Assembly (NCBI RefSeq): GCF_023017165.1 | Contig: NZ_JALKBW010000001.1 | Coordinates: 1-64,000 of the forward strand | Length of the DNA stretch: 64,000 nt | Origin: Gordonia alkaliphila | GTDB lineage: Bacteria > Actinomycetota > Actinomycetes > Mycobacteriales > Mycobacteriaceae | Direction: 5' to 3' | In this document: positions 31,977 through 34,198 of the stretch, one piece after another | Layout of the letters: every line of letters starts with the position of its first letter | How positions within the stretch are numbered: the first letter of the stretch is position 1 | Program-made: the position numbers and the translations under genes | Notes under the pieces: generated by a model | What the model was told of the DNA's origin: nothing | Database searches by the model: none | The model's input: only the letters and a program-made list of their open reading frames with translations

Positions 31977-32753
31977 CTAACCCTTGACCAGTCCCCCGTC
32001 GACGATCAGGTTCTGTCCGGTCACCCCGCGGGCCCACGGGGACGCGAAGAACAGCACCGCGTCGGCGAGTTGCTCCGGCGTGGTCACCGCGCCCAACGGC
32101 GTGGCCGCGGCGATGGCGTCGAACACCTCCGGCGGCGTCGCCGCGGAGGCGTCGGTGGTCTGCAACAGTCCCCCGGAAACCATGTTCACGGTGATACCGC
32201 GGGGTCCGAGGTCATCGGCGAAGGTGCGGGTCAGCGACAGCAGCGCTGCCTTGGCGGCCGTGTAGTCGTGATACGGGACCACCGGATGCTGGAACAGGTT
32301 GGTACCAATGTTGATCACTCGCCCGAAACCGGCCTCGGCCATGCCGGGCAGTGCCGCCTGAATGAGGTTCAGCGGCCCCTGCACGGAGCCCTCGAACTGT
32401 GCGGCCAAGTCGCGGTAGCCGATCTCGCCGGCCTGAGCCCGCGCGTCTCCGTTGAAGGCGAAGTCGATCAGCGCATTGTTCACCACGGTGGTGACCGGAG
32501 CACCGAAGGCCTCCTGCGCCGCAGCGATCACCGCGTCGACCCGGGCCCGGTCCCGCACGTCACCGGCCACCGCGACTGCGCGAGGGCCGAACTCAGCGGC
32601 CAGTGCGTGCGCCGCAGCGCCGGAGGAGTGGTAGTTGATCGCCACGCGGGCACCCTGCCCGAGGAAGGCGCGCGAGATGGCGGCGCCGAGGCCGCGTGCG
32701 CCGCCGCTCACGACGACGACCTGGTCATCGAGACCACGAAGTGCAGTTGTCAT
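31977..32753 (-). CDS. Short-chain dehydrogenase/reductase under TPP riboswitch control
   Basis: A 258-residue SDR resembling 3-oxoacyl-ACP reductases. The nucleotide-binding turn is 'SGGARGLG' (16-23). The catalytic Tyr164 and Lys168 lie in 'YHDYTAAKA', and the position of the usual catalytic serine, 13 residues before the Tyr, is Thr151 (NIGTN). A TPP aptamer lies 40 bases upstream on the same strand, so expression should fall when thiamine diphosphate is plentiful. From memory, comparative surveys of THI elements named an SDR of this kind oarX. A role in thiamine precursor metabolism is inferred from the control element; the reaction is not known. Confidence 0.85.
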   Translation of the reverse strand: MTTALRGLDDQVVVVSGGARGLGAAISRAFLGQGARVAINYHSSGAAAHALAAEFGPRAVAVAGDVRDRARVDAVIAAAQEAFGAPVTTVVNNALIDFAFNGDARAQAGEIGYRDLAAQFEGSVQGPLNLIQAALPGMAEAGFGRVINIGTNLFQHPVVPYHDYTAAKAALLSLTRTFADDLGPRGITVNMVSGGLLQTTDASAATPPEVFDAIAAATPLGAVTTPEQLADAVLFFASPWARGVTGQNLIVDGGLVKG

Positions 32754-32792
32754 GCCGAATGTCCTTTTCGAGGATCGGCGAAGGGCTGATCT

Positions 32793-32885
32793 GACATCCC
32801 TTCGCCAGTGCTAACTGGATCAGGTTCGACGGGTGTCATCTCAGCCGCAGGATTCCGGGTCGGAGTAGGTGCGGCACCCCGTGTC
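32793..32885 (-). ncRNA. TPP (THI-box) riboswitch
   Basis: Read on the minus strand, the conserved blocks appear in order: GACACGGGGTGC, CTGAGATGACACCCG, GAACCTGATC, CAGTTAGCACTGGCGAAGGGA and TGTC. GACA at the 5' end pairs with the 3' TGTC (P1). The 3' segment GGCGAAGGG (32798-32806) can instead pair with CCCTTCGCC (32777-32785) just downstream, a ready alternative hairpin. A small TCCT/AGGA stem near the SDR start can cover the ribosome site. Translational control of the SDR is the likely output. Confidence 0.93.
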
Positions 32886-32967
32886 GGAAGCCATCCCACC
32901 ACGGCCGGGGACACAAGACAAGGCGCCGCGGCACCAACCCGGATGCGACAGCGACGGCGGACTGCAC

Positions 32968-33012
32968 GGTGGGGCCACCGGGGCTCGAACCCGGGACCAG
33001 CAGATTATGAGT
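32968..33012 (-). repeat. att-type repeat: 3' half of the CAU tRNA
   Basis: Forty-five bases match the 3' half of the tRNA at 34125-34198 (anticodon loop through T arm and acceptor, plus GG beyond) with two mismatches. The 5' half of a tRNA is absent, so this is not a functional tRNA. It marks the outer end of an element that integrated into the tRNA gene. Confidence 0.8.
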
Positions 33013-33201
33013 ACCAGAATCACTGTCTCCCGTTGGCCGTCGCGGTCTATCGGCGCTGGTCAGCGCAGCAGAGAACAACCAGAGACAGCCCGAGATGTGA
33101 CAAGCCCGTGACAACGTGACACGACGCCCGCACACCAGCGCCCCCGAATCCTCACTGGAGCGGGGGCGCTGGTGCACCGGATCGCCCTCGACAATGGCTG
33201 T

Positions 33202-33240
33202 CTCGCGCGGGCGCGCTCGCGCTAGGGTCGGAAACATGCG
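33202..33240 (+). repeat. Direct repeat, copy 1: promoter and start of small gene
   Basis: Thirty-nine bases identical to 33537-33575, covering a GC-rich stretch, the -10-like TAGGGT and the first codons of the small gene. With the coding region it forms a duplication unit of about 335 bases. Confidence 0.85.
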
Positions 33241-33457
33241 AGTACTGACCGAGGACTTCCTATTCGAGCGCCAGAAAGCGCACTCGGCGATCTACGACGA
33301 CTTCATCGACAGGTACGGCGAGGACTGGAACGACGAGCAGGAGGCAGAGTTCCGCGCCGCGGCGCAGGCGAGCGTTGCCGAATGGAAGATCAAGGCCGCG
33401 GACCTACTGGACAAGCTCTATGTGCCAGATCCGGCGGCCGCCGACACCTCGGAGTAA
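33236..33457 (+). CDS. Small acidic protein, copy 1, inside the tRNA-linked element
   Basis: A 73-residue helical, acidic protein ('YDDFIDRYGEDWNDEQEAEF' in the middle, 'AADLLDKLY' near the end). No family is recognised. No Shine-Dalgarno site is visible; TAGGGT ends seven bases before the ATG, so a leaderless mRNA is likely. A second, closely similar copy lies 335 bases downstream. It lies between the att-like repeats, so it is cargo or a control gene of the former mobile element. Confidence 0.6.
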   Translation: MRVLTEDFLFERQKAHSAIYDDFIDRYGEDWNDEQEAEFRAAAQASVAEWKIKAADLLDKLYVPDPAAADTSE

Positions 33458-33536
33458 GCACGAGTCACCCGCGCAGCAGCAGAACCGCGGCCGTCATACC
33501 GTCGACGTAGACGCGGCCCTCAGCGGCGATGGCCAG

Positions 33537-33575
33537 CTCGCGCGGGCGCGCTCGCGCTAGGGTCGGAAACATGCG
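33537..33575 (+). repeat. Direct repeat, copy 2
   Basis: Second copy of the 39-base leader found at 33202-33240, again placing TAGGGT seven bases before an ATG. Confidence 0.85.
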
Positions 33576-33807
33576 GCTGCTCACTCAGGACTTCCTGTTC
33601 GACCGCCAGCAAGCGTGCGCCGCGATCTACGACGACTTCATCGACAGGTACGGCGAGGACTGGAACGACGAGCAGGAGGCAGAGTTCCGCGCTGCCAGCC
33701 AGGCACATATTGCCGAATGGGATGCCAAGGCCGCAGACCTACTGGACAAGCTCTACGGGCCAGATCCGGCCGTACTACGGGGGCGGCGAGTACGTGGCGA
33801 GCGATGA
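33571..33807 (+). CDS. Small acidic protein, copy 2, fused out of frame to integrase remnant
   Basis: The first 67 or so residues closely match copy 1 (identical over 'IYDDFIDRYGEDWNDEQEAE'). After 'LLDKLYGPDPA' the sequence leaves the family and ends VLRGRRVRGER. The DNA at the break changes to integrase coding sequence in another frame. The gene therefore looks like a duplicate truncated by the deletion that removed the front of the integrase gene. It may still make a near full-length protein of 78 residues. Confidence 0.5.
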   Translation: MRLLTQDFLFDRQQACAAIYDDFIDRYGEDWNDEQEAEFRAASQAHIAEWDAKAADLLDKLYGPDPAVLRGRRVRGER

Positions 33808-34053
33808 GGCGGGCCACCCCTACGCTCCGACCTGGGTCACCGCCCACTGGGCCAAGCTCCTCAGCGAACTGGCCATTGAGCATGTCCGCCTCCACGACGC
33901 CCGCCACAATTGTGGCAGCTTGATGCACGCTCGGGCGTGCCCCCTGTCGCCATCGCGGCATGGCTCGGCCATCACGACCTCGCTTTCACCTTGCGGACGT
34001 ACGTCCACGCGCAGAGCGACGCACTCAAGGTCGCCGGGCAGACTTTCCGGTGA
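33767..34053 (+). pseudogene. Tyrosine-recombinase (phage integrase) C-terminal remnant
   Basis: Encodes the end of an integrase: 'GGGEYVASDEAGHPYAPT', then 'RLHDARHNCGSLMHAR' with the HxxR active-site motif. After a frameshift it continues 'GVPPVAIAAWLGHHDLAFTL' and 'RTYVHAQ' with the nucleophilic Tyr. The N-terminal two-thirds, including the first catalytic Arg, is missing. The frame breaks at the G run 33933-33935, where one extra G would restore it. It points toward the tRNA, as integrase genes usually do in tRNA-integrated elements. Confidence 0.85.
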
Positions 34054-34122
34054 GTTGTGACAGTCTGTGACAACGCTCGGCGGTCTGGTGCTGGCAAGAC
34101 CCACTCTGGCCAGACCTGTAAA

Positions 34123-34167
34123 GGTGGGGCGACCGGGGCTCGAACCCGGGACCAGCGGATTATGAGT
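34123..34167 (-). repeat. att-type repeat within the CAU tRNA gene
   Basis: The inner partner of the repeat at 32968-33012: the same 45 bases with two mismatches, here forming the real 3' half of the tRNA. Together they bound an insert of about 1.15 kb. Confidence 0.8.
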
Positions 34168-34198
34168 CCGCGGCTCTAACCAACTGAGCTATCGCCCC
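34125..34198 (-). tRNA. tRNA with CAT anticodon (tRNA-Met, elongator type, or tRNA-Ile2)
   Basis: A 74-base cloverleaf. The acceptor is GGGGCGA/TCGCCCC with discriminator A, and the D arm contains GCTCAGTTGGTTAGAGC. The anticodon stem-loop GCGGACTCATAATCCGC has CAT, and the T arm contains GGTTCGAGCCC. CCA is not fully encoded. A CAT anticodon serves Met, or Ile after lysidine modification; elongator Met is my first choice. It is the integration target of the relic element. Confidence 0.88.

Follow-up and report, generated by a model that had tools for sequence, protein, structure and literature searches.

Why is a gene for a short-chain dehydrogenase/reductase (SDR) preceded by a thiamine pyrophosphate (TPP) riboswitch, and what could such an enzyme contribute to the supply of vitamin B1? 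The question is raised by a 64-kb stretch of Gordonia alkaliphila DNA (contig NZ_JALKBW010000001.1, positions 1 to 64,000), referred to here as the window, in which an earlier note had proposed a complete THI-box ahead of an SDR gene together with an alternative hairpin. Based on the analysis of this leader and its relatives, we consider it highly probable that the element is a TPP-repressed translational riboswitch, which turns down the SDR of a conserved thiamine-acquisition module. On the minus strand the order is TPP aptamer (32891-32780), spacer and SDR gene (32753-31977), and the two principal features are:

32780..32891, minus strand: TPP riboswitch aptamer, RF00059, model positions 1-105 aligned, 65.4 bits against a gathering threshold of 54.3
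31977..32753, minus strand: SDR oxidoreductase of 258 aa, NF006393/PRK08642, with Thr151-Tyr164-Lys168 and with Ser123 at the usual place of the catalytic Asn (open reading frame, profile match, alignment)

The aptamer and its linkage to the SDR gene

A cmscan comparison of the window with RF00059 returned the riboswitch at 32891..32780 of the minus strand with an E-value of 1.4e-10; the score and span listed above place it in the class and bear out the complete THI-box. The proposed spacing of 40 bases was also correct, with P1 ending at 32793, 40 nt from the ATG at 32753. Alignment revealed that the optional P3a hairpin is absent from the window aptamer and from 20 other SDR-linked aptamers of the same family. 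The window riboswitch adds a member to a class that is already known, and its role is a known one too. The same genome carries two more TPP riboswitches, ahead of what look by eye like thiC and thiO-thiS genes. From these sequences we infer that the window aptamer binds TPP and represses the SDR.

The earlier note had asked for a gene-context search for SDRs downstream of THI boxes, and this search revealed a conserved pairing. Orthologues of the SDR (E ≤ 1e-40) occur in 34 of 121 genomes of the same family. Thirty of these loci were compared: the aptamer lies directly upstream in 27, a 28th has a split aptamer, and two have none. The comparison did not include G089, G106, G093 and G104; by coordinates the aptamer adjoins the SDR in G089 and, with a partial match, in G106, the match in G093 begins at a contig end, and G104, which is the same as L185, has the aptamer. 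Within the genus, the SDR is found in 21 of 59 genomes, and the aptamer in 19 of those 21, the split one included. A phylum-wide sample contained NF006393 in 13 of 396 genomes, ten of them from one distant family, where nine of ten SDR loci have a TPP aptamer upstream on the same strand (about 1.3 kb away in three of the nine).

A wider set, hereafter the named loci, comprises the best 80 of at least 589 confirmed relatives, and shares within it are not a census. TPP aptamers were found at 55 of these 80 loci, in three phyla (Actinomycetota 47/51, Bacillota 1/1, Pseudomonadota 7/28), and 54 of the 55 lie within 400 nt. Eight of 16 plasmid records were also examined. Six of the eight have an aptamer upstream of the SDR, immediately adjacent to it in three and about 2.3 kb away in the other three. 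On a tree of 90 SDRs, 89 of them labelled (L141 omitted; L162 and L166 labelled aptamer-free, the upstream scan of L166 having given nothing significant), the aptamer label needs 8 changes compared with 22.6 in shuffles, and lineages are mixed. This clustering of the label, together with the mixing of lineages, suggests that the SDR may have been transferred between lineages with its switch attached.

Several observations weigh against a strict coupling of the SDR to TPP. The gene is accessory: at E ≤ 1e-60 it is missing from 38 of the 59 genomes of the genus, and in the congeners L167 and L169 it has no aptamer. Moreover, the SDR lacks an upstream TPP aptamer at 25 of the 80 named loci, one of them (L141) being cut by a contig end, and the enzyme thus also has a life outside TPP control. 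Eighteen of the 25 are Lysobacterales (0/18 with an aptamer), all of which also lack an adjacent gene for the flavin monooxygenase described below.

Three loci have features of their own. In the congener G008 (L034:2396-2556) an element of 161 nt, bounded by perfect 18-bp terminal inverted repeats, interrupts loop L5 of the SDR-leader aptamer; the split aptamer scores below the Rfam threshold. The element has 21 matches in that genome, its own site counted, and looks like a small transposable element inside the riboswitch, which retains its P4/P5 arms. The L167 SDR is 80% identical to that of the window; no aptamer was found there, and tRNA genes for Glu, Asp and Phe lie just upstream. At L059 (2843-2909, minus strand) a guanidine-III riboswitch (65.4 bits) shares the strand of the SDR's TPP aptamer, at a distance of about 400 nt.

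Predicted competing hairpins in the leader

Between the aptamer and the start codon, the window leader contains the elements of a proposed switch:

32798..32806, minus strand: 3' strand of the aptamer, GGCGAAGGG, on the P4/P5 side; one arm of the anti-aptamer hairpin (read from the sequence)
32777..32785, minus strand: anti-aptamer strand, CCCUUCGCC, whose last three bases, GCC, also belong to the sequestor (hairpin of -18.2 kcal/mol, 0 of 500 shuffles as good)
32754..32779, minus strand: sequestor hairpin, GCCGAUCCU-CGAAA-AGGA-CAU-UCGGC, covering the ribosome-binding site and ending at the start codon (-9.6 kcal/mol)
32762..32766, minus strand: Shine-Dalgarno-like AAGGA, 8 nt 5' of the ATG (read from the sequence)

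The exact complementarity claimed for GGCGAAGGG (32806-32798) and CCCUUCGCC (32785-32777) is present, and none of 500 block-shuffled platforms equalled this pairing; CCCTTCGCC occurs once per strand within the window. The TCCT/AGGA stem that had been proposed to cover the ribosome site also exists, although it is incomplete as described: it forms the inner part of a 9-bp hairpin, lengthened by the outer arms GCCGA (32779-32775) and UCGGC (32758-32754, directly before the ATG). The predicted energy is -1.8 kcal/mol for the TCCT/AGGA stem alone, compared with -9.6 for the 9-bp sequestor and -18.2 for the anti-aptamer hairpin. Because the anti-aptamer takes up the GCC that the outer arm of the sequestor requires, the two hairpins cannot both form in full, and this competition for GCC is what makes the switching model work.

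According to the model, when TPP is scarce the free strand GGCGAAGGG would pair with CCCUUCGCC; this pairing would use up GCC, leaving a weak 4-bp stem over the ribosome site, and the SDR would be translated. With TPP bound, the aptamer would hold GGCGAAGGG, and the freed GCC would allow the 9-bp hairpin GCCGAUCCU/AGGA..UCGGC to close over the Shine-Dalgarno sequence, so that translation would drop. The SDR would thus be made when the cell needs vitamin B1. Folding of partial leaders agrees with this scheme, as the anti-aptamer prevails when the aptamer strand is included and the sequestor forms when it is withheld.

For a comparative test we assembled 54 leaders, namely that of the window and those of 53 of the 55 TPP-positive named loci, all with the aptamer within 400 nt of the SDR. 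Left out were L120, which gave no motif match, and L114, where the aptamer is 1.6 kb away and precedes a hydroxyethylthiazole-kinase-family gene. Start codons were chosen by hand. A contiguous anti-aptamer match was significant (P ≤ 0.05 against block-shuffled platforms) in 30 of the 54 leaders, where about three were expected; the leaders are related and not independent, and the P values overstate their independence. In all but one of these leaders (29/30), the match stops 17-24 nt short of the chosen start codon. Freeing the aptamer strand raised the predicted accessibility of the Shine-Dalgarno sequence in 27 of the 54 leaders and lowered it in four, the mean change being +0.113 (Wilcoxon 6e-6) compared with +0.026 for shuffled strands. 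The combination of anti-aptamer and ribosome-site hairpin thus recurs among SDR leaders, and the comparison supports a translational OFF switch, as predicted from sequence.

Part of the evidence points the other way. The anti-aptamer match is not significant in 24 of the 54 leaders, and accessibility moves in the wrong direction in the four already mentioned; in the window itself the shift is small (0.37 with the strand free versus 0.26). Unconstrained RNAfold of the whole leader, an equilibrium and not a co-transcriptional fold with no ligand present, keeps the sequestor and contains neither the anti-aptamer nor the native aptamer. Its minimum free energy was -62.6 kcal/mol, compared with -53.9 when the anti-aptamer and -42.7 when the aptamer was enforced (energy of the ligand excluded). 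The alternative hairpin proposed for this leader is therefore backed by the related loci and by the folds with the strand free or withheld, but not by the unconstrained fold of the full leader.

The absence of the anti-aptamer from that fold would also be in line with a real aptamer that acts by direct occlusion of the ribosome site or by transcription termination. Another layout is seen, by eye, in several congeners (e.g., L174, L178-L184), where the start codon follows a few bases after the end of the aptamer and GAAGGGA is the likely ribosome site. In the window, however, a separate AAGGA lies 8 nt before the ATG and no U-run follows the hairpin in the sequence; together with the recurrence of the two-hairpin layout among relatives, this makes occlusion or termination quite improbable here.

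The reductase, its gene neighbours and its possible reaction

The SDR matched NCBIfam NF006393 with 408 bits (cut-off 292). As the earlier note had stated, Thr151 occupies the position of the catalytic Ser; it is nearly invariant (≥ 90%) in 35 orthologues, while in four distant members the residue is Ser or Thr. Tyr164 and Lys168 are invariant, with position 151 being Thr or Ser. Ser123 stands opposite the catalytic Asn in an alignment with two solved SDRs, and the Asn is not conserved. An AlphaFold model (predicted local distance difference test score, pLDDT, 82.8) has an ordinary SDR fold. A literature search for the gene name oarX gave unrelated papers among the matches listed.

The database name of NF006393 is 3-oxoacyl-ACP reductase and the closest solved structure is FabG 4nbu, which could indicate a true FabG-type enzyme of fatty-acid synthesis. 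The identity to 4nbu is just 32%, however, and the FabG models among the best 25 families scored far under their cut-offs (148.6 vs 296 and 122.2 vs 297.75 bits), on which grounds this identity was rejected. Given also that the catalytic Asn is not conserved and that TPP control would make no obvious sense for fatty-acid synthesis, a FabG function is very improbable indeed.

The gene neighbourhoods speak for thiamine. In L068, from the distant family, the order is TPP aptamer, ThiT, thiamine diphosphokinase, SDR and ThiD, each thi gene scoring over its curated cut-off. On Neorhizobium and Gemmobacter plasmids the SDR closes an annotated thiM-thiE-thiD run, with the aptamer before thiM. Several loci have a second, divergent aptamer: it precedes an SSF-family symporter in L117 (the same cluster is present in L134 and L144), thiM and thiE in L138, and ykoE-like/ECF ABC genes in L084 and L128. 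With the conserved TPP linkage, these operons support the proposed tie of the SDR to thiamine metabolism.

The most frequent neighbour is an NtaA/DmoA-like flavin monooxygenase gene. By tblastn it follows the SDR directly in 48 of the 80 named loci, 46 of these 48 having a TPP aptamer (an earlier clustering gave 47 and 45); among the 55 TPP-positive named loci it follows the SDR in 46. The family was assigned on one member, L119, to which the partner genes in the 48 loci are related. The L119 protein is over the cut-off of TIGR03860 and matches solved structures of YtnJ/MoxC, DszA and the nitrilotriacetate (NTA) and ethylenediaminetetraacetate (EDTA) monooxygenases.

TPP riboswitches mostly repress acquisition genes, and for this reason the SDR and the monooxygenase most likely help to obtain thiamine. 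Since SDR orthologues sit with thiM-thiE-thiD, with ThiT-thiamine kinase-thiD or with the NtaA-type monooxygenase, the SDR most likely makes a thiamine precursor usable, as judged from gene context. The ThiD cut-off is exceeded by two matches in the window genome and the ThiM cut-off by none, a pattern that speaks for the pyrimidine side. We tentatively propose NAD(P)H-dependent reduction of 4-amino-2-methyl-5-pyrimidine carbaldehyde to 4-amino-5-hydroxymethyl-2-methylpyrimidine (HMP) for ThiD. NTA and EDTA monooxygenases split C-N bonds and release an aldehyde. An analogous cut in an N-(pyrimidinylmethyl) compound would yield the pyrimidine aldehyde, which the SDR would reduce to HMP for ThiD; such a scheme would fit the ThiD in the operons and the missing ThiM of the window genome. 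It is possible, though speculative, that the SDR and the monooxygenase together form an oxygen-dependent vitamin B1 salvage pathway not previously described, in which a thiamine breakdown product, the N-(pyrimidinylmethyl) compound, would be converted to the aldehyde, then to HMP, and passed to ThiD.

A role on the thiazole side is the unlikely counterpart. The SDR would then interconvert hydroxyethylthiazole and its aldehyde, or act on a thiazole-derived compound, and the monooxygenase would open or desulfurise a thiazole-type substrate. The SDR shares some operons with thiM, in the same orientation, and diverges from it in L138, and the monooxygenase also matches DszA and YtnJ/MoxC, which are known or suspected C-S-active enzymes. 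This reading is countered by the window genome, with its lack of a ThiM over cut-off, and by the L068 operon, which has ThiD and no ThiM among the open reading frames seen in its 3.7 kb.

Another explanation, which we regard as doubtful, is that the SDR has no thiamine substrate: it would reduce carbonyls in general, or detoxify thiamine antimetabolites, and would have come under TPP control. SDRs are functionally diverse; the 18 Lysobacterales genes lack both the aptamer and the adjacent monooxygenase (their other neighbours were not scanned for thi genes), and on two Caballeronia plasmid stretches the SDR has no annotated thi gene and no significant upstream aptamer. Repression by TPP, on the other hand, is expected for acquisition and not for general metabolism, and the ThiT-thiamine kinase-ThiD and thiM-thiE-thiD operons recur in distant lineages.

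The salvage reading has difficulties of its own. No close relative of the monooxygenase is encoded in the window genome, where the best match has an E-value of 2e-7 and 31% identity; the two-enzyme scheme therefore cannot apply in this genome. The structure gave no substrate clue, the matches listed being generic SDRs of 26-37% identity. The symporter of L117 is over the Pfam SSF cut-off but below that of NCBIfam sss (84 vs 184).

Other features surround the gene in the window. A PhnB-like protein gene (PF06983; 30989..31885, minus strand) begins 91 nt after the SDR. As a core part of the module it was rejected: a tblastn over the loci, with five that repeat the window or G008 left out and many having just 1.5 kb of flank, found a relative near the SDR in L034 only. 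Upstream of the leader, a 45-nt direct repeat (32968-33012 and 34123-34167, 96% identical) equals the 3' end of tRNA-Met 34198..34123, and may mark where a tRNA-integrating element, since decayed, was inserted; this possible footprint begins 77 nt upstream of the aptamer. Inside that footprint a small open reading frame is directly duplicated over 247 nt (33189-33435 and 33524-33770, 86% identical), and no clear Pfam family was found for it. A remnant of a tyrosine recombinase, seen by eye near 33710-34057, was not confirmed by Pfam.

Known systems and significance

The link between a TPP riboswitch and an SDR has been published before, for a single species and as a speculation. In Corynebacterium glutamicum a TPP riboswitch lies upstream of cg0825, a putative short-chain oxidoreductase, for which the authors speculate on thiamine-dependent processes (PMC3890552). 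C. glutamicum has an NF006393 match over cut-off, and cg0825 resembles the window SDR in being an SDR gene behind a TPP riboswitch, a likeness by description. Unlike the present account, the available portion of that paper describes no switching model, monooxygenase partner or spread over phyla. Among the literature matches listed, there was no further paper on the link in C. glutamicum.

With regard to mechanism, the window switch resembles those of the thiC/thiM type, in which a TPP aptamer is followed by a ribosome-site-hiding stem open to anti-sequestor competition; it differs in the controlled gene, an SDR, and in the exact pairing partners. Escherichia coli thiC and thiM have translational TPP riboswitches of this type. 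Another is described, in the accessible part of its source, for thiC of Paenibacillus riograndensis (PMC5670726).

With regard to function, the likeness is to OFF control of thiamine or precursor acquisition. Thiamine precursor transporters and salvage genes were reportedly recognised as TPP-regulated by Rodionov et al. in 2002. The available excerpts of PMC2211319 and PMC3766115 describe such transporters and salvage genes as having OFF switches on acquisition genes and, in contrast to the present loci, name no SDR or monooxygenase among the TPP-regulated functions. Our literature searches found no paper describing the SDR-monooxygenase module, which is also unmentioned in the available parts of PMC2211319, PMC3766115, PMC5784534 and PMC12452182; likewise, no thiamine-regulated member of the NtaA/DmoA family was found in the portions of the literature consulted.

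The recurrent platform GGCGAAGG/CCTTCGCC, followed by a ribosome-site hairpin, offers a clean example of a conserved translational switch. A TPP riboswitch is moreover a strong functional label, and here it marks an SDR, usually together with a flavin monooxygenase, for vitamin B1 acquisition in at least three phyla. If the proposed pathway is true, a TPP-controlled operon in Actinomycetota, Pseudomonadota and Bacillota would represent a new source of HMP, of which the window organism would keep the reductase half only. The database name of the SDR family points to a fatty-acid enzyme; should the enzyme step be confirmed, this annotation would be corrected and a salvage route for thiamine breakdown products would be added. 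Even with another substrate, the operon narrows the genes and compounds worth testing to a few.
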